DNA of 36,674 nucleotides from NCBI GenBank assembly GCA_024398595.1, contig JAKSIX010000023.1, positions 1-36,674 on the forward strand, written 5' to 3'. Source of the stretch: Bacteroidaceae bacterium (lineage in GTDB: Bacteria; Bacteroidota; Bacteroidia; Bacteroidales; Bacteroidaceae). The notes below the pieces were generated by a model. It had not been told where the DNA came from and made no database searches. It saw only the letters and a program-made list of their open reading frames with translations. This document shows positions 21,123-30,426 of this stretch, piece after piece (position 1 is the stretch's first letter; each line of letters begins with the position of its first letter). Both the position numbers and the translations under genes were made by a program.

Positions 21123-22493
21123 ATGCTTGACCAAAACGACACAATTTGCGCTGTAGCGACCGCAACGGGTGGTGCCCTTACGGTTATACGCATTTCAGGA
21201 ACGAATGCCATGAAGGCGGCGGGAATGGTATTTACGGCGAAATCCGGGAAACCTTTGGCGGCCTGTGCCCCATATTCTTCCTGTTTCGGCCAGATAACCG
21301 ATGAAAATGGTCAGGTATTGGACGAAGCCATCGCCACCATATTCCGCACTCCCCATTCCTACACAGGAGAGGACTGTGTGGAATTCTCGTGTCACGGTTC
21401 AGTGTATATAGCGCAACAAATCATATCACTGCTCATTATGCACGGGTGCAGACAGGCGGAACCTGGCGAGTTCACCCAACGTTCATTCCTGGCAGGCAAG
21501 ATGGATTTGAGTCAGGCAGAAGCTGTAGCAGACCTCATCTCCTCCACATCGGCAGCATCGCACAGGCTGGCCATGAACCAGATGAAGGGCGGTTTCAGCC
21601 GCAAATTGGGTGAGTTGCGCACAAAGCTGACTGAGCTCACATCGCTTATGGAACTGGAACTGGACTTCAGCGAAGAGGACGTCCAATTCGCCGACCGCTC
21701 CCGTATAGATGAACTCGCAGCCACGATAGAGCAGACCCTCACCACCCTCTCGGCATCATTCAGGACTGGACAGGCACTGCGCAACGGTGTACCCGTAGCC
21801 ATTATAGGCCGGACGAACACCGGCAAAAGTACCCTGCTGAACCTGCTTCTGAACGATGAACGCGCCTTAGTAAGTGACATCCAGGGCACCACGCGCGACA
21901 GCATCGAGGATACCGCCGTCATCAATGGTACGCTGTTCCGCTTCATTGACACCGCCGGCATACGAAAATCCGATGATGCCATAGAGCAGATGGGTATTGA
22001 ACGTTCCTTCCAGAAGGCCGCCCAGGCCGACATCATCCTGCTGCTGACCGACTGTTCCCAACCTGAAGAGGAACGCGATACAGAGCTTGAGAACAAGCTG
22101 ATGCCTATATGCCAGGGCAAAACCCTAATAAGGGTTCACAACAAATGCGACCTCCTCAAGAGCGTTCCGCAAGGTTCGGACAACGACATTTATATATCTG
22201 CGAAACAAGACACCAACTTACTTCAACTCAAACAGATTCTCGTCAAATCCGCCCCCACTCTGCAACCCGACGGCAACGATGTCATACTGACCAATATGCG
22301 ACACTTCCAAGCCGTCAACCGCGCACTGGACTGCATCACCCGCGTCCGTCAAGGCCTCACCGACGGCACCCCCACCGACCTCCTCAGCCAGGACACCCGC
22401 GAATGCATCCACCACCTCTCCGACATACTCGGCGAAGTCACCACCGACCAGGTACTCCAGAACATCTTCTCGCACTTCTGCATCGGGAAATAG
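21123..22493 (+). CDS. mnmE: tRNA-modification GTPase MnmE
   Basis: A 456-residue GTPase that with MnmG modifies the wobble uridine of certain tRNAs. The N-terminal folate-binding domain opens with DTICAVATATGGALTVIRISG and holds SYTGEDCVEFSCHGS. The central helical domain encloses the G domain, with G1 IIGRTNTGKSTLLN, G2 GTTRDSIED, G3 DTAGIR and G4 NKCD. The C-terminal CIGK carries the invariant catalytic Cys. In G1 the usual Pro of GxPNxGKS is Thr. All parts are present and length is standard. The coding sequence ends the conserved chromosomal stretch; the following 140 bp lead into the defence island. Confidence 0.98.
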   Translation: MLDQNDTICAVATATGGALTVIRISGTNAMKAAGMVFTAKSGKPLAACAPYSSCFGQITDENGQVLDEAIATIFRTPHSYTGEDCVEFSCHGSVYIAQQIISLLIMHGCRQAEPGEFTQRSFLAGKMDLSQAEAVADLISSTSAASHRLAMNQMKGGFSRKLGELRTKLTELTSLMELELDFSEEDVQFADRSRIDELAATIEQTLTTLSASFRTGQALRNGVPVAIIGRTNTGKSTLLNLLLNDERALVSDIQGTTRDSIEDTAVINGTLFRFIDTAGIRKSDDAIEQMGIERSFQKAAQADIILLLTDCSQPEEERDTELENKLMPICQGKTLIRVHNKCDLLKSVPQGSDNDIYISAKQDTNLLQLKQILVKSAPTLQPDGNDVILTNMRHFQAVNRALDCITRVRQGLTDGTPTDLLSQDTRECIHHLSDILGEVTTDQVLQNIFSHFCIGK

Positions 22494-22636: not shown

Positions 22637-23749
22637 TTACAATCCCAGCTCTAATTGATCTATTTTTCCTTTGAGTCTAAAGTAAATCTTTCCCTTACTT
22701 TTGTATTCTTCTACAAAAGATAAACTACGTATATACGTCTTCATTTTATGGTCAGACCAGTTTAATCCTAACTTTTCAAGAATATATTTACTTGTAATGC
22801 TGCCCCCTGATTCGAGAATTTGCTTAATCTTGTCATCTCTATCTTTTTTGTCTTGGGTAAGCACATCATTGGAGCTAAAAACAACGAGATTCCCTTTGAT
22901 GTCAACTGCTATAGCACCTTTTTGTATTAACAAAAGATTGGCATTTCTTTCACCAACTTCAGGCATCCTTACAAAAATAGTTCTTTTCTTTCGTAATCCG
23001 TCCATAACACCTGACCACGTGCCGCCTTTATCGTCACTTTGTGCTACATAGATTTCATTAGCTAAACCATAGATATATGGGTTTCTTCTCATTGCAAATT
23101 CTACGCTCCATGGTGCATTTGGATGAAAAGCACTTAATACTAGTAAACGACCTTGCGTGATATACTTATAATACTGCTTAAAGCCAGATGCAAACGTCGC
23201 AATACCTTGAGGTAAAACAATTATACTTTTCCCTCCTGCCTCTAGGGCTGCATCTAATGCCATTCTATCTACTCCTTTTGCAAAGCCACTTACAACAATT
23301 TTACCTTCAGCAACACATTTTTTTGCCACTTCTGATGTAAACTGAAGAGATAAAGGATCTGCACTCCTTGAACCGACAATAGCTACTGCAGGTTCTTGTA
23401 AAAGAGCTTTATTTCCTTTAGTAAAAATAATACTAGGTGAAATTGTTTGAAGATTCAGTTTCAATGTCTTCGAATAGTCTAAACTATCCATTGGAATTAT
23501 ATCGTATCCTTGTGATAATAGGCTTTCTGCTAAGAAACTATTATTTGCCAATTCCGCTTTTGCATTTACAAGCAGATTTATTTCTTCAGAAGATAATCCT
23601 AAAGTTGACCATAAAGAACTGTCTTCAAACAACTGAACTATAGATATACGAGGATTGCTTTTATAGCAAGCTACATATATCTCATTCTTGCGTTTTAAGG
23701 TTATACCTTGTATAAAGTATAATGTAATCCAATAAGTTAACTCATTCAT
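22637..23749 (-). CDS. DprA/Smf-like protein, partner of the RecQ-PRTase
   Basis: A 370-residue DprA-family protein. A helical N-terminus (1-60) leads to the Rossmann core (about 100-290), with VAIVGSRSADPLSLQFTSEV, VVSGFAKGVDRMALDAALEAGG and IIVLPQGIATF, the DprA nucleotide or ssDNA-binding motifs. The C-terminal part (about 305-360) is a winged helix (DDKIKQILESGGSITSKYILEKLGLNW). It is distinct from a housekeeping dprA: its start overlaps the stop of the RecQ-PRTase gene by 4 nt and it is more AT-rich than the chromosomal genes. DprA-like proteins paired with PRTases act as antitoxins in the ShosTA defence system, so an antitoxin or ssDNA-sensor role is plausible. Confidence 0.85.
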   Translation of the reverse strand: MNELTYWITLYFIQGITLKRKNEIYVACYKSNPRISIVQLFEDSSLWSTLGLSSEEINLLVNAKAELANNSFLAESLLSQGYDIIPMDSLDYSKTLKLNLQTISPSIIFTKGNKALLQEPAVAIVGSRSADPLSLQFTSEVAKKCVAEGKIVVSGFAKGVDRMALDAALEAGGKSIIVLPQGIATFASGFKQYYKYITQGRLLVLSAFHPNAPWSVEFAMRRNPYIYGLANEIYVAQSDDKGGTWSGVMDGLRKKRTIFVRMPEVGERNANLLLIQKGAIAVDIKGNLVVFSSNDVLTQDKKDRDDKIKQILESGGSITSKYILEKLGLNWSDHKMKTYIRSLSFVEEYKSKGKIYFRLKGKIDQLELGL

Positions 23750-25995
23750 AATGGTGTACCTCCTACGGTTTTTGCAATTACTACTGGGGTGATATAATTA
23801 GCTTCTTTTTGAGTAAGCATCGAAGCGATTTCTTTTATTGTAGCACCGCTATCATAGATATCATCTATTAATATTATATTCTTGCCTTTGATATTTGCGG
23901 TAATATCAAAGGCGTCCTTGATGTTCTCTTGTTTACTATACGCATTTTGGAATATTTTTTGTTCATCAGTAATGCGAGTTTTGATCAAATCGTGAGATAT
24001 AGGAACCTTTATCACTCGTGCGAATTTATCAGCAATATTTTTTACTAAATCACCAGAGTGAGTTGGTGGTACATAAAGCACCAAATCATAATGGAACTTA
24101 CCGAACTTTTTTCCAAATGCTTTAAGCATTAAGCGTAATAGGAAATCCGGAAAATCTCCACCATTTTCATATTTCGAACGATGAATAGCTCCTCCAACAT
24201 TCGATACTCCATAGTAGGAAGCCGCTACACCATTTGTTATATGAGATTTCTTTTCTCTATGTGCAGGCAACAACTCTTGAAGTTTCTCTATTTCGTCAAT
24301 AGAAAAATCACTTCTGTTAACTTTTCCATTGTATCTGGCAACTAAAACTTTATCTCTAAAGACATCAACGACATTTGGATAAGGAACTCTTATCAACAAC
24401 TGAGTTTTTGTCTCTTCATCAACTCTAACATACCTAAGAGAAGACTCTGACAGTTCTAACTCCGGGAAATATGTTTCACGGAATTCTTGTAATTTATCTC
24501 GGAGATTGTTATCATCTTCAAAATATAATCTTGGTTGATTTGTATTGTCACAATTTGAATAATTTATATTTTCATCGCTATCAAGGAAAGAACATAAGTA
24601 TTTCATTCTTGGTTCTGAAGTGTTAACATAACCAATCATTGAGTCAAGATCTTTCAATTTAGCTAATCTCAGCGTCTCAAATCTAGAATAATCAAAATTT
24701 GGGGCATTATATTGATATTCAAACTTTTTTACCTTACCATAAAGAACTTCGTTAATTATTCCCTGATCAATTAAATCGTATTTTATTGTACGAACTTGAT
24801 TCGACTTAAAATTGCCTTTTCTGACAAGATCACGTTCAGACAACGGTTCTTCTTTAAGCATTTCTATTACTCGTTTGTACTTTCTTTCAGAAGGTCTTGC
24901 GCCGTCAATGAATGCCAATGGGAGTAACTTGTCGGTATCAACCTTATCTTCTCCAAATTTACTGTCATTATAGAAAAGAATAATGGTTGTAGGCTTTCCA
25001 TCACGACCTGCACGACCAATTTCTTGATAATAATGTACAGGTGAAGCTGGAATTTGTGTATGAATAACAAAGCGAATGTCTGGCTTATCTACACCCATAC
25101 CGAGTGCATTCGTTGACACAATACACTTCCAACGATTAACCATCAATCCATCTTCTATTGTTTTTCTTGTTTCGGCATCTAAACCAGCATTATAATCGAT
25201 GGACTCAATCTTGTTGTATTTAAGCCAATTAGAATATGTTTCAGTATCTACACGTGTTCCTGTATAGATTAGTCCTGTTCCAGGTAACGAATTAATGTTT
25301 TTCGCAAGCCATATCATCTTTTCGTCTTCTGATTTAACTTTAATGACATTTAAGATGAAATTAGGACGGATTAATGAGCCTCGAATTGTGGTTAATTGTC
25401 CTCCAATCTGTTTCTCAATATCAGCTTGAACTCTTTTTGTAGCTGTTGCAGTTGTTGCAAGTATAGGCAGTTTGGCAGGCAAAAGCTGTACGAGGTTTAT
25501 TATTCTACGAAACGCTGGTCTAAAGTCATGCCCCCAGGTTGAGATAGTATGTGCTTCATCAATGACAACCATTGAAAGATTCATCTGCTTTGTGGCTTCG
25601 ATCCATCTTTCATCTTCTTGTCTTTCGGGGGCTATATAAAGAATCTTTAGTTCACCATTCAGTGCTCTTTCAATTACATCTTGGTTTTCTTCGTTTGTTT
25701 GTTCAGAGTTAATATAGGCTGCACTAATTCCTTTACGGAGCAATCCTTTAACTTGATCTCGCATAAGCGCAATCAAAGGAGAGAATATTACCGTTATTCC
25801 GCTGAATTGAGTTGCAGGAAATTGGTAACACAAAGATTTACCAAAGCCTGTACGTTCTATCATGAGTATTCTTTCTCCTGATAGTATTCGTGATATGGCA
25901 GTCCATTGCTCATCATAAAAATGATCAATACCAAATATTCTCTTTAGTCGAATTTCTGCTGTAATTCTATCCATTATATTATTTTGTAAGGTCAT
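23746..25995 (-). CDS. RecQ-like helicase fused to a ComF-like phosphoribosyltransferase
   Basis: A 749-residue fusion. Residues 1-340 are a RecQ superfamily-2 helicase: Q-motif region FYDEQWTAI, Walker A ERTGFGKS (47-54), VIDEAH, SPLIALMRDQ, LATTATAT, then NALGMGVDKPDIRFVIH and YYQEIGRAGRDG. A possible RecQ-C/zinc-like region follows, but its Cys residues (LCSFLDSDENINYSNC) are incomplete. Residues about 590-749 resemble a type I PRTase of the ComF kind: LVLYVPPTHSGD and the PRPP loop NIILIDDIYDSGAT near 706-719. Base composition is visibly more AT-rich than the flanking genes, suggesting transfer. It is predicted to be a defence protein coupling DNA unwinding to a PRTase reaction. The start could also be the ATG at 25974. 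Confidence 0.88.
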   Translation of the reverse strand: MTLQNNIMDRITAEIRLKRIFGIDHFYDEQWTAISRILSGERILMIERTGFGKSLCYQFPATQFSGITVIFSPLIALMRDQVKGLLRKGISAAYINSEQTNEENQDVIERALNGELKILYIAPERQEDERWIEATKQMNLSMVVIDEAHTISTWGHDFRPAFRRIINLVQLLPAKLPILATTATATKRVQADIEKQIGGQLTTIRGSLIRPNFILNVIKVKSEDEKMIWLAKNINSLPGTGLIYTGTRVDTETYSNWLKYNKIESIDYNAGLDAETRKTIEDGLMVNRWKCIVSTNALGMGVDKPDIRFVIHTQIPASPVHYYQEIGRAGRDGKPTTIILFYNDSKFGEDKVDTDKLLPLAFIDGARPSERKYKRVIEMLKEEPLSERDLVRKGNFKSNQVRTIKYDLIDQGIINEVLYGKVKKFEYQYNAPNFDYSRFETLRLAKLKDLDSMIGYVNTSEPRMKYLCSFLDSDENINYSNCDNTNQPRLYFEDDNNLRDKLQEFRETYFPELELSESSLRYVRVDEETKTQLLIRVPYPNVVDVFRDKVLVARYNGKVNRSDFSIDEIEKLQELLPAHREKKSHITNGVAASYYGVSNVGGAIHRSKYENGGDFPDFLLRLMLKAFGKKFGKFHYDLVLYVPPTHSGDLVKNIADKFARVIKVPISHDLIKTRITDEQKIFQNAYSKQENIKDAFDITANIKGKNIILIDDIYDSGATIKEIASMLTQKEANYITPVVIAKTVGGTPL

Positions 25996-26031: not shown

Positions 26032-27096
26032 TCATAAGGTTTTGGACACTTCATTCCAATAGAAGAATGCCTCAGGATGTGTCTTCTTGAGCTTGTTCAG
26101 CTTTGTCGGAAGAGGCTGTTGAATGACCAGATCCGCCAGTTCCCTCAATCCATCCGGAGAATAATGGCGGACTTCATTGATTCCGCAATCGAGTAATCGG
26201 CTAAGATAAGCCGCTTTTGAGGCGTTTACAATTGCCGAATCAAGATTGTATCTCACGCTGTGGATGAAGTTTCCTATACGGCTGATGCCATCCTGAAACA
26301 ATTTGAATTCTTCCGGTTCGCGGGTTCCTCTCATACAGATGCACAAAGCGCTTTGGAATATGTCATCCAACACAAGGCGAATATCATTTGGATCCAGATG
26401 ACGGTATTGCAGTTCTACCGCAGCGAATCGGGTGAAGGTTTCTCTGGTAACTGCCAGGTCATCCGTAATGTCAAACAATGATGCAACATCAAAGAGCTGC
26501 TTGATGATTTCCATGGTGCATTTCTTCTCTTTTTTGAAGAATGGAATGCCGGTAGTATGAGGAGCGAAAGCAGTCAGTTTATCGCCAAGCAGATCTTCGT
26601 GGCTTGGCAGATTGACCATCACGTCCGGCTCTTCAATGATAAGCAAGGGACTCTTGATTGGCCTGGATACTATCTTAGCATAGTGCGCATCTTCAAAGAG
26701 CACATCCAGCAGAATCTTGTCAGAACCCCCATTGCCGGGATAGCTGACCGTGTAGAAGAATTTCGCATGTCGCTTGGGAACGTCCGAAAGAGCAACCCTT
26801 TCAACAAGTTCAACTCTGCCGAAGCCGTATTCCTCAGAATGCTTTTCAAGATAGTCCTCTATTGCAGTACCCGGAGGACAGATGATGTCTATATCAATAG
26901 AGAGTCGCTTGCTCGTATTCATATGAAGCATGAGGGAACTTCCCCCTTTAAAGATGAAGGGACAGCCTGAACGCGCCAGCGCTTCCAGCAACGAAAATGC
27001 ACGAATTGTCTTCTCCACCAGAGCAACGTCATGGACACCAATCCGGCTGGCTGCATCTGTGATCCATTCAATGGACCTGCTTCTCTTGTCTATCAT
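26032..27096 (-). CDS. AbiEii-like nucleotidyltransferase toxin
   Basis: A 354-residue protein of the AbiEii/MenT nucleotidyltransferase family (DNA polymerase beta fold), toxins of type IV toxin-antitoxin and abortive-infection systems. Motifs are FKGGSSLMLHM (GGSS at 51-54), then RLSIDIDI with the metal-binding Asp68 and Asp70, and SHEDLLGDKLTAFAP near residue 165 with the conserved DKL. The C-terminal half is helical. It overlaps the upstream AbiEi-like gene by 29 nt, as expected for a coupled pair. Family members transfer nucleotides to tRNA or other targets; this target is unknown. Confidence 0.88.
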   Translation of the reverse strand: MIDKRSRSIEWITDAASRIGVHDVALVEKTIRAFSLLEALARSGCPFIFKGGSSLMLHMNTSKRLSIDIDIICPPGTAIEDYLEKHSEEYGFGRVELVERVALSDVPKRHAKFFYTVSYPGNGGSDKILLDVLFEDAHYAKIVSRPIKSPLLIIEEPDVMVNLPSHEDLLGDKLTAFAPHTTGIPFFKKEKKCTMEIIKQLFDVASLFDITDDLAVTRETFTRFAAVELQYRHLDPNDIRLVLDDIFQSALCICMRGTREPEEFKLFQDGISRIGNFIHSVRYNLDSAIVNASKAAYLSRLLDCGINEVRHYSPDGLRELADLVIQQPLPTKLNKLKKTHPEAFFYWNEVSKTL

Positions 27097-27820
27097 TGTT
27101 TATCGTACTTATTATTCGTTCGACTTGTTCTTTGCGGCCACGACGGGAAGCATATCTCAACAGCTTGCTCATATTGACATTGTTGCGTTCCCGCGCGTAT
27201 TCATAGATATTGTAAATCTCCGAGCCTCCTGCGAACAGCAGCTCGTCATCGCCGACCGCATCGACCAGCATCTTCTCTATTCGTGGCACGACGCAGCCAT
27301 TTACAGTTGTCAACGGAGACTGGCTGGTCAGTTGACGCACAACTATCGCATCACTTCCTGTAAGATACAAGTCGCAGTCTCTCGATGAAGGATCAAGAAG
27401 TACATTTCTGCCAAGGCTCATATCCTGCAGGGCATGGAATACTGACTCCATTCCATCTTTTTCTACATCCACGAAAATGTAGCCGATATCCGGTACATGG
27501 AGCATGAATGCAGATAGCGCCTTTGGGCTCCATATACAGAAATCAAGAAATGGGAACTGCTGTTTCAGATTCAAGAAGATTGACTGCTCGTCCTCGGACG
27601 GCATATATACGAACTCCGGCAGGTTGTGGTCGGCCAACCGATACTCCCCTCTCCCTTTCCGTACAAGCATCCCGGATGACACCATTCGTCCCAGCTGAAG
27701 ATCAACAGATCGTCGGGTAACATCAGTCGTCATTACATCAATCTCCCGAAGGAGATCTTTCCTCAGGAAAGTTCCCCCTTTAAGAACCGCATAGTTCAAT
27801 ATGGTCTCTGTCGTTGTCAT
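27068..27820 (-). CDS. AbiEi-like antitoxin/regulator (DUF6577-like)
   Basis: A 250-residue protein preceding and overlapping the AbiEii-like gene. The N-terminus (about 1-60) is a winged helix (LNYAVLKGGTFLRKDLLREIDV, SVDLQLGRMVSSGMLVRKGRGEYRL), the DNA-binding part seen in AbiEi antitoxins. The remainder matches the AbiEi/DUF6577-like pattern with FLDFCIWSPKALSAFMLH and a basic C-terminus (LRYASRRGRKEQVERI). AbiEi proteins repress their own operon and block the toxin. I found no clear TAnnTTTG element upstream. Confidence 0.82.
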   Translation of the reverse strand: MTTTETILNYAVLKGGTFLRKDLLREIDVMTTDVTRRSVDLQLGRMVSSGMLVRKGRGEYRLADHNLPEFVYMPSEDEQSIFLNLKQQFPFLDFCIWSPKALSAFMLHVPDIGYIFVDVEKDGMESVFHALQDMSLGRNVLLDPSSRDCDLYLTGSDAIVVRQLTSQSPLTTVNGCVVPRIEKMLVDAVGDDELLFAGGSEIYNIYEYARERNNVNMSKLLRYASRRGRKEQVERIISTINNDRQEKQVH

Positions 27821-28309
27821 ATCATTGAATCCTCTGTAAAATTACATCAATATTGTCAACACACAAAATAATTTGCCAAAAAAGAGATAATAAAGTCACA
27901 CTTTTGGTTCATAGCTGTGTTTGATATGACCACAGAATGATTGTCACCTATGGTTTGGTTTAATCTTTTGCTATATATTCAAACTAAACCATACTCCTTC
28001 TTATGAAAGAAAAATGACCAGAAGTGTCCATGTGTGCCAATGATTAATGAAGAGCTAGAAACCCACTCTTTCTTTTCATCAGAAAGAATATCTCCTCAAT
28101 TTCTATAACAGAAGTTAGAAATAGTATATTTGGCACACGTGTGCCAAAGGTTTTTGATATACTATTGATTAGCAGTAATTTGACAAATTTTCAAATTTTG
28201 AATTGGAAAGTTCAAAATATCTTGCATCGGGAAGTAGATAATCCTATGCAACTTTATATATTAGCATGGAAATGGGCCCGTCGAGAATTACCAAGGTAGG
28301 TTTTCTCAC
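27821..28309. other. AT-rich intergenic region with several inverted repeats
   Basis: No gene is seen here. Two structures stand out. The first is an imperfect 12-bp inverted repeat (ATGGTTTGGTTT at 27950-27961, AAACTAAACCAT at 27981-27992). The second is a perfect 20-bp palindrome at 28129-28148 with outer AATAGTATAT/ATATACTATT arms. It separates the minus-strand AbiE/RecQ/DprA run from the plus-strand AbiL-like pair, so it should hold divergent control signals. Confidence 0.6.
28129..28148. promoter_or_regulatory. Perfect 20-bp palindrome, candidate operator
   Basis: TTTGGCACACGTGTGCCAAA is its own complement. A half-site, GTGTGCCAA, recurs at 28032-28040, and AATAGTATAT (28120-28129) pairs with ATATACTATT (28157-28166) outside it. 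The geometry fits a dimeric repressor or a recombinase core site. No binder can be named. Confidence 0.5.
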
Positions 28310-28394
28310 ATCCGTTAAATTTTAACGGATAACAACAGAAAGTATTGGAATTTCGAATGAGAGCGCTTATATTTGCAACAGAAACCGTTAAATT
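28310..28394 (+). promoter_or_regulatory. Promoter of the AbiL-like operon bracketed by CCGTTAAA boxes
   Basis: TTG (28345-28347), 20 bp and TATATTTG (28368-28375) form a canonical promoter with a start near 28381. Just upstream is the palindrome ATCCGTTAAA-T-TTTAACGGAT (28310-28330). Downstream of the start a direct copy of CCGTTAAATT recurs at 28385-28394. Sites on both sides of a promoter suggest repression by a bound dimer or by looping. Confidence 0.65.
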
Positions 28395-28402
28395 CATTCG
28401 TT

Positions 28403-29755
28403 ATGATACTTCGAATTATCCTTCAAAATTTCTTTTCTTTTAAAGAGCAGACTGAATTTAACTTATTTCCGAGCAGCAGATCTACTCAGCTGACAGACCA
28501 TATAGTATCACAAGACCATACTAAAGTTTTGCGTATGAGTGCTATTTATGGGGCAAATGGCGCTGGCAAAAGTAACTTGATAAAAGCGGTATCAATTATT
28601 CAGCGAATAATCGTAGGTGGTTCTCTCGACAGAATATCTTCGACATTTTATAAAATGCCGTTCTTACTAAAGAAGGATGCTGCCGACGAGCCTGTCTCTG
28701 CTGCTGTGGAGTTTTATCATAATGGTATCATCTACTACTATTCGATTTCATTTGAGAAAAATTGTGTGGTTGGAGAGGAACTATATGTTTCGAAGAAGGA
28801 TTCTGATGAGCCTATCTTTTCAAGAAGGGTTGTCAATGGCATTCAGGAGATTGATTTTTGTAAGGCTTTTATGGAGAAAGATCCTAACAACCCTGTTTTC
28901 GCGAAAGCTCTTGCTGAAAAGATTCTTGCCAAGACTGACCTGCTTATTTCATTTATGGGAGAAAAGTACACGAATGAAATTGCAGCTATTTCGGATGCTT
29001 ACTCGTGGTTCTGCAATAATATGAAGGTTGTGGAGCCCAGCAGTATGAGCGGGATTACTGCACATCTGCTGGATAGTAACACAGAGATGCTGGCCCTTCT
29101 TAACAAGACTCTTCCCGAGATGAACACTGGCATTTCCAAAATTGAAATCAAAAAGATTGTTCTTCGTGAAGATGACGATACTCTTTCCTCCGGTCTGAAA
29201 CGTAGAATACAGCAGGCGAAAGAAAGTCCCGGCGTTGCTTTTCCTGCAGGAAACATACATGATTCCCGTGTTTATGCTTCTGTTGTGTATGAGAATAATG
29301 AGTGTATTCTGAAGATGATGCAGCCTCTTCATGTGGATGTAGAGGGGACGGAGTTTTTCATGCCACTTGAAAGCGAGTCCGATGGGACAATCAGGCTGAT
29401 TGATTACATTCCGTTCATTTATAGTATTTTACATGAGGACAAGGTGTATTTTATTGATGAAATAGAACGGAGTGTACATCCGATAATGATTAAGCTCATT
29501 GTTTCGAAGATTTCGGAGAATTCATCTTGCAGAGGGCAGCTGATTTTCACTACTCACGAGTCTTGTCTTCTTGACCAGAAAATTCTCAGAGCTGACGAGA
29601 TTTGGTTTGCCCAGAAGGATAGCGACCAGGCTTCGCACATCTACCCTCTAAGTGACTTCAACATACATAAGACTGCAAATATTGAGCTTGGTTATCTTAA
29701 TGGAAGATATGGCGGCATACCTTTCCTGTCCAATCTCAAAGATTTACACTGGTAG
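28403..29755 (+). CDS. AbiLi-like AAA (ABC-type) ATPase, RloA family
   Basis: A 450-residue SMC/ABC-like ATPase. Walker A is IYGANGAGKSNLIKA (Lys56), a signature-like stretch ESESDGTIRLIDYIPF lies late in the protein, and Walker B is KVYFIDEIERSVHP, followed by the switch His in FTTHESCLL. This layout is that of AAA15/RloA proteins. The start at 28403 (MILRIILQNFFSFKEQ) is typical of the family and lies about 22 nt after the predicted transcription start. It is followed 2 bp later by an RloB gene. An AAA ATPase with RloB matches the two-component AbiL phage-defence system, in which the ATPase is thought to sense or license the RloB effector. Confidence 0.9.
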   Translation: MILRIILQNFFSFKEQTEFNLFPSSRSTQLTDHIVSQDHTKVLRMSAIYGANGAGKSNLIKAVSIIQRIIVGGSLDRISSTFYKMPFLLKKDAADEPVSAAVEFYHNGIIYYYSISFEKNCVVGEELYVSKKDSDEPIFSRRVVNGIQEIDFCKAFMEKDPNNPVFAKALAEKILAKTDLLISFMGEKYTNEIAAISDAYSWFCNNMKVVEPSSMSGITAHLLDSNTEMLALLNKTLPEMNTGISKIEIKKIVLREDDDTLSSGLKRRIQQAKESPGVAFPAGNIHDSRVYASVVYENNECILKMMQPLHVDVEGTEFFMPLESESDGTIRLIDYIPFIYSILHEDKVYFIDEIERSVHPIMIKLIVSKISENSSCRGQLIFTTHESCLLDQKILRADEIWFAQKDSDQASHIYPLSDFNIHKTANIELGYLNGRYGGIPFLSNLKDLHW

Positions 29756-29757
29756 CC

Positions 29758-30426
29758 ATGATACAGAGGAAAAGAGTTTTCGAGAAGGCTGAGCCTACAA
29801 AGGATGCTCAGAAGATATATGTTTTCTGTGAGGGGGACACCCGCGAAAAGGATTACTTTGATTTCTTTGAGGGTATGTCTTCGAATTTGGAAATCATTCC
29901 TATTGCGCCGTACGACCACAAGTCATCTCCAAACAATCTAATCAACTACGCTGAGGTGTTATTCCACGGTGAGACACCGACATACGAGCTCGACTACAAG
30001 CAGAATGACAAGGTTTGGTTTGTCGTTGACACTGATCAATGGGAGGAGGATGGGCTAATTGACTTATTGAGAAATTACTGCATCAAAAAGAATACCGAAA
30101 ATCTTTGTCAAGCCTGGTATGTAGCACAAAGCAATCCTTCGTTTGAGATTTGGCTTTACTATCATATATATAGTACGAAGCCTTTAGAAAAGGAGGTTGC
30201 CAGATATTCTTCCTTCAAGGATTTTGTGAATAGCAAAATTGCTGGAGGTTTCGACAGCAGGACTATGCCGATTTACATTGAAGATGCTATTCGCAATTCA
30301 GAAGTCAACTATGATGAAGATGAAAATGGTCCATCATTGTACAGTACAGAAGTTCATATCTTAGGAGCTGATATTGTCAAGTACTCGAAACGAGAGCTTC
30401 AGATAAAGAAAAGGACGCTTGTTTAG
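29758..30426 (+). CDS. RloB (AbiLii-like) TOPRIM-type nuclease
   Basis: A 222-residue RloB family protein, the presumed effector of the AbiL-like pair. Motifs are IYVFCEGDTREKDYFDFF, where the Glu starts a TOPRIM-like active site, VWFVVDTDQW with the DxD, and AQSNPSFEIWLYYH. The length agrees with the family. Translational coupling to the ATPase is likely, with a 2-bp gap. Nuclease activity is known only by fold analogy; the substrate (tRNA or other RNA/DNA) is not predictable here. A hairpin with a T-run follows 48 bp downstream. Confidence 0.9.
   Translation: MIQRKRVFEKAEPTKDAQKIYVFCEGDTREKDYFDFFEGMSSNLEIIPIAPYDHKSSPNNLINYAEVLFHGETPTYELDYKQNDKVWFVVDTDQWEEDGLIDLLRNYCIKKNTENLCQAWYVAQSNPSFEIWLYYHIYSTKPLEKEVARYSSFKDFVNSKIAGGFDSRTMPIYIEDAIRNSEVNYDEDENGPSLYSTEVHILGADIVKYSKRELQIKKRTLV

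Follow-up and report, generated by a model that had tools for sequence, protein, structure and literature searches.

A pair of overlapping genes in the window analysed here, a 36,674-nt stretch of DNA from a Bacteroidaceae bacterium (GCA_024398595.1, contig JAKSIX010000023.1), encodes a RecQ-like helicase fused to a phosphoribosyltransferase (PRTase) and a DprA-like partner, and is, as judged from its sequence, PsyrTA (RqlHI), a system of an already described kind and not a new one. Very probably it is a toxin-antitoxin system in which the PRTase of PsyrT is toxic, PsyrA restrains it and phage or DNA stress sets it free. What is new is modest: two small novelties, a β-rich insert of about 65 residues before the PRTase and the loss of most zinc cysteines.

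The psyrA ATG (23749-23747) shares the tetranucleotide ATGA with the psyrT TGA (23748-23746), and the two reading frames and their 4-nt overlap lie exactly where a preliminary description had placed them. The helicase-PRTase fusion proposed there is borne out by Pfam matches above cut-offs within one 749-aa frame, to DEAD and Helicase_C (residues 29-333) and to Pribosyltran (654-739); the partner protein matches DNA_processg_A at 126 bits. Relative to the closest relative (L070, among the best 80 of 145), protein identity is 92% for the fusion and 84% for the partner, and dN/dS is about 0.03 and 0.06, respectively, rough values with dS near saturation that are nevertheless low, so that neither gene looks like a chance reading frame. 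The alignments of most homologues begin only at residue 7 or 8, so the true start of the fusion may be residue 8 and not residue 1.

Table 1. Features of the psyrTA locus and its surroundings, in window coordinates
Feature	Position	Strand	Evidence
mnmE, last 15 nt, possible attachment site	22479..22493	+	repeat search
psyrA (rqlI-like), DprA-like partner, predicted antitoxin	22637..23749	-	ORF, 370 aa
PsyrA C-terminal winged helix, residues 299-360	22670..22855	-	structure model
PsyrA DprA Rossmann core with VGSR motif, residues 81-288	22886..23509	-	Pfam, alignment, structure model
psyrT (rqlH-like), RecQ-like helicase with C-terminal PRTase, predicted toxin	23746..25995	-	ORF, 749 aa; PsyrT 816 bits; Pfam; AlphaFold model, mean pLDDT 84.8
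ATGA overlap, psyrT stop/psyrA start	23746..23749	-	sequence; -4 spacing also in 31/71 partner-bearing relatives
PsyrT type I PRTase domain, residues 583-745	23761..24249	-	Pfam; profile-structure match
PsyrT PRPP loop, residues 709-720, LIDDIYDSGATI	23836..23871	-	D711, D712, D715, S716, T719 invariant, n=44 sequences
PsyrT insert of ~65 aa, four β strands and a helix, residues 517-580	24256..24447	-	alignment; AlphaFold model
PsyrT RecQ zinc-binding region, residues 437-485	24541..24687	-	alignment: of C462/479/482/485 only C482 kept
PsyrT HHH-β-β element, putatively winged-helix-like, residues 370-427	24715..24888	-	DSSP of model
PsyrT RecQ helicase lobes, residues 8-345	24961..25974	-	
PsyrT Walker B/DEAH box, residues 146-149	25549..25560	-	invariant, n=44 sequences
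PsyrT Walker A, residues 49-54, TGFGKS	25834..25851	-	T49, G50, G52, K53, S54 invariant, n=44 sequences
abiEii-like nucleotidyltransferase	26032..27096	-	AbiEii E 2e-128; 36 nt upstream of psyrT
abiEi-like gene (DUF6577), overlaps abiEii	27068..27820	-	Pfam, PADLOC
14/15 copy of mnmE end, possible far attachment site	28223..28237	+	repeat search
AAA_21 ATPase and RloB pair, AbiLi/AbiLii-like	28373-30426	+	PADLOC

By structure comparison, covering mainly residues 5-491, the model of PsyrT has a RecQ fold, in which residues 370-427 sit between helicase lobe 2 and a zinc-like hairpin. PsyrT is not the housekeeping RecQ, since it scores 356.8 bits against the TIGR01389 equivalog cut-off of 640, while passing that of the broader RecQ-family subfamily (TIGR00614, 314 against 220); the genome also carries two RecQ genes. 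An assignment to DpdF of the Dpd defence system is likewise rejected (NF041063, 180.8 bits against a cut-off of 550). The profile of the PRTase domain weakly matches the structures of PurF, HGPRT and PRPP synthetase (best E 1e-5). The preliminary description had called this domain ComF-like, and ComF (E 7e-10) is indeed among the best NCBIfam PRTase models for the C-terminal end; GntX (E 4e-10) is slightly better, and both fall far under their cut-offs. The alignments A1 and A2 comprise 44 sequences each (the window's protein plus 43 of 61 and 66 usable relatives); in PsyrT the predicted helicase and PRTase active-site sets are both intact.

The insert is present in 20 of 74 aligned PsyrT proteins (19 by count plus the misaligned L089). 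This 74-row alignment leaves out nine of 80 loci, among them L102, L111, L114 and L145, that lie outside 640-870 aa, are cut by a contig end or have a frame read as broken. Mirror-tree correlations between domains range from 0.58 to 0.87 and, being confounded by phylogeny, single out no interface. In six relatives, L132, L135 and L136 (Dehalococcoidia) and L122, L123 and L127, PsyrT frames of 785-869 aa extend past the PRTase.

PsyrA has the fold of DprA by structure comparison and is distinct from the housekeeping DprA, with 105.9 bits on TIGR00732 against an equivalog cut-off of 191; on PF02481 the other DprA of the genome, encoded on a different contig, reaches 233 bits against 127 for psyrA. 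Both this score and the existence of another DprA count against a competence-type machine for DNA uptake, in which helicase, ComF-like PRTase and DprA would together handle incoming single strands. Such a machine could account for the DprA fold of the partner and for GntX and ComF being the best-scoring NCBIfam PRTase models, and ComFC is reported to bind PRPP and ssDNA (PMC9005727); yet it is barely credible here, as the neighbour families listed include no competence family.

The window pair shares with RqlHI a RecQ-like helicase with a C-terminal PRTase and a DprA-like gene directly downstream, in the same order. Walker and PRPP-loop residues match by motif, with an E. coli plasmid pair standing in for the F11 proteins: K53, D146 and D715 of PsyrT, all invariant (n=44), correspond to K49, D148 and D663 of RqlH, and the PRPP loop matches DIVD663. 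The plasmid pair has the same gene order and 4-nt overlap; its proteins are 29% identical to PsyrT (764 columns) and 35% identical to PsyrA (232 residues). On the same PADLOC models the window pair scores below it, with 816 against 1019 bits for PsyrT (residues 12-745) and 251 against 577 bits for PsyrA (residues 45-298). Unlike RqlHI, the window's PsyrT carries the extra β insert, and of the four zinc cysteines present in the plasmid copy three are missing from it; PsyrA, with 370 against 400 aa, is the smaller partner protein. PsyrTA was reportedly described by Sberro et al. in 2013. That study is cited in PMC8790059, the helicase-PRTase fusion and its DprA link were described in 2017 (PMC5512222), and shosTA, syrTA and rqlHI have been grouped as systems with DprA-like antitoxins (PMC9122126).

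The preliminary description, whose interpretation is supported in part, had pointed out a likeness to ShosTA. The 749-aa fusion is not a stand-alone PRTase toxin, which excludes membership: ShosT is without a helicase, its model of 237 positions matches psyrT residues 658-744 only, and the partner scores 109 bits with the ShosA model, below the 251 of PsyrA. An RqlH of Mycobacterium smegmatis was reportedly studied by Ordonez et al. in 2012. According to PMC4670107 this protein is also a helicase-PRTase fusion and, unlike the window pair, comes without RqlI.

A search for the fusion and its DprA partner across genomes, as the preliminary description had advised, finds a same-strand DprA-like gene downstream in 71 of the best 80 relatives (of 145 found in named genomes); in the remaining nine, either the fusion itself is truncated or disrupted, or the contig runs out in it or soon after it (in L110, 193 nt past the stop). 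Spacing is at most 30 nt, overlaps included, in 66 of the 71, and exactly -4 in 31; of the five with wider spacing, four have a fusion frame read as cut, and in the fifth, L139, 65 nt separate the two genes. When the order was sampled evenly, with the window's own genome counted, PsyrT exceeded 750 bits in 19 of 295 genomes, and PsyrA stands beside full-length PsyrT in 18 of these 19, one PsyrA (G242) having an internal stop. Across the order and phylum samples, window excluded, a DprA-like ORF lies within the 1.5-kb flanks at 44 of 47 places, a count that leans upward, as the partner HMM was built on relatives that may share species with the loci searched; two of the 44 are weak (L190, L191) and five score 58-76 bits. 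None was found in these flanks at L028, L188 or L206, the last being cut by the contig start. In Bacteroidota the pairing is close to obligate, which agrees with the 2015 count for RqlHI, in which 87.9% were paired in Gram-negatives (PMC4670107).

PsyrT occurs in 32 of 395 phylum genomes (of 33 phylum matches besides the window, 29 had their loci examined and four were left out). Within the genus it is found in one of 37 genomes, and in one of the eight that are at least 90% complete. Phage records yield eight matches at E 1e-60 or better, all in the helicase part only, and among 50 matching plasmid records four carry copies that cover at least 80% of the query. L188, L190 and L191 belong to one genus of the phylum sample with full-length PsyrT, in which the DprA-like ORF was not found (L188) or is weak (L190, L191); this genus may have kept the toxin without an intact antitoxin. 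At L172:4149-9765 (G007:C24) there is a PsyrT-like fusion of 756 bits near which no PsyrA was found; the next ORF, which overlaps it, encodes a 1211-aa SNF2 helicase with DUF3670, ZorD/DpdE-like, possibly a different partner of the fusion.

The defence-gene setting noted in the preliminary description is confirmed, with abiEi and abiEii upstream on the same strand and the AbiL-like AAA/RloB pair beyond. The genes abiEii, abiEi, psyrT and psyrA perhaps form one co-transcribed operon, and the GC contents of abiE and psyrTA (47% against 35%) suggest that the two are of separate origin. Linkage of AbiE to PsyrTA is not a rule, as none of the 80 relatives has an AbiE match at 1e-10. Around the relatives no recurrent third component was found, no Pfam family occurring more than three times among 108 neighbouring ORFs (of 208), and the PADLOC neighbour families listed are represented by one ORF each. 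These neighbours are mixed and not mainly defence genes, with restriction, BREX and Dpd families but also metabolic genes, and an enrichment for defence is not established by the 108 ORFs. The E. coli plasmid pair is embedded in a type I restriction locus, and an Acinetobacter pair lies beside the BREX gene pglX, settings that fit a defence role.

The pair shows signs of mobility. A copy of the mnmE end with one mismatch lies 5744 bp on, so that the two copies bracket psyrTA and abiE; in a test made after the repeat had been seen, none of 300 random 15-mers of the window had an equally good copy within the 6 kb that follow mnmE, and the segment holds other two-copy repeats of 15-16 nt and similar identity (D8, D13). 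GC is 35% in psyrTA, 47-48% in abiE and 48.5% upstream. Of 619 stretches as long as the segment bounded by the mnmE-end repeats, taken every 50 bases, none is as low in GC as that segment. SGI1 elements insert at the 3' end of trmE, that is mnmE (PMC8409611), and the repeats are possibly an integration site of this type. Since no integrase was seen after mnmE among 10 proteins from four relatives of the genus (Pfam), the attachment-site reading stays a lead. In the same genus, L174:5317-5353 (G299) has a second mnmE-end-like copy directly after the mnmE stop, with 4 mismatches in 18, which would fit repeated use of the mnmE site. No RNA family reaches its gathering score within the window.

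This distribution bears on whether PsyrT and PsyrA might instead serve DNA maintenance, acting on host recombination or repair intermediates and becoming toxic only when their balance is broken. Russell and Mulvey preferred a cooperative role on DNA and reported no fitness loss without both genes (PMC4670107), and the folds are those of RecQ and DprA. With the pair in one of 37 genus genomes, low in GC and beside AbiE, without a fixed neighbour among the 108 ORFs and in a genome that has other RecQ and DprA genes, such a role is unlikely.

The toxin-antitoxin reading draws on RqlHI of extraintestinal E. coli, a co-transcribed operon whose DprA-like product holds a toxic helicase-PRTase in check (Russell and Mulvey 2015, PMC4670107). 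As reported there, the PRTase is harmful but insufficient alone, and its deletion, DIVD663EVME or D663A removes most effects; RqlI binds RqlH and rescues cells from it, its helix-turn-helix being dispensable; and helicase-dead RqlH still lowers viability and raises SOS induction. By analogy, PsyrT would be the toxin, its PRTase binding PRPP and harming the cell via nucleotide or DNA chemistry, and the RecQ-like motor would tie this activity to DNA and help to hold it back; that the motor restrains rather than only senses is suggested by the rise in SOS upon its loss in the published RqlH mutants. PsyrA, whose translation is probably coupled to that of PsyrT on a shared mRNA, would bind PsyrT and keep it harmless; once a phage or another DNA stress upset the complex of PsyrT, PsyrA and DNA, the freed PRTase would halt the infected cell. 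That the window copy acts as RqlHI does is inferred, as are translational coupling, triggering by phage and the proposed chemistry.

Against this explanation, the alignment sets the window's branch apart from RqlH at two places, the zinc region and the insert. Toxicity may not be universal either, given that, of the strains carrying at least one of RqlH and RqlI, 55% have RqlH alone, mostly Gram-positives, nearly all of whose RqlH are without RqlI (PMC4670107), and that three of the 47 places above are without a partner. The literature searched lends weak support to protection from phage by PsyrTA: PMC12409345 reports none detectable for E. coli PsyrTA, in an expressing strain with a growth defect, and no mechanistic account under the name PsyrTA was found in that literature.

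As to chemistry, the preliminary description had proposed, as a new mechanism, a PRPP-dependent modification of bases or nucleotides that unwound phage DNA would trigger. A single chain that joins helicase to PRTase, with both sets of predicted active-site residues intact, is compatible with modification of bases in such DNA, but the idea is not new: alteration of DNA bases by the PRTase with helicase help was already speculated for RqlH in 2015, its authors proposing an altered nucleotide in DNA as the product (PMC4670107). The literature searched reports no modified base, ShosT is reported to act as a PRTase and pyrophosphatase that disturbs the purine pool (review, PMC12593503; work of Pu et al. 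2025), and unwinding is seemingly dispensable for toxicity, given the loss of viability and the SOS induction that RqlH caused even with a dead helicase; base modification is decidedly improbable. More elaborate, and very improbable indeed, is a functional variant in the Bacteroidales branch, in which the zinc module has been given up and the added β domain between motor and PRTase would let PsyrT respond to a new input, either a DNA structure or a protein of the phage; once freed, the PRTase would put a phosphoribosyl adduct on bases of motor-opened DNA.

In summary, this copy of PsyrTA is in itself ordinary: a clean and intact pair with an insert specific to its branch, from a group distant from the E. 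coli examples. Its value is as a second, divergent test case for the effect of the PRTase on the cell and for its release from the DprA-like partner, in which the invariant residues point out positions for mutational tests.
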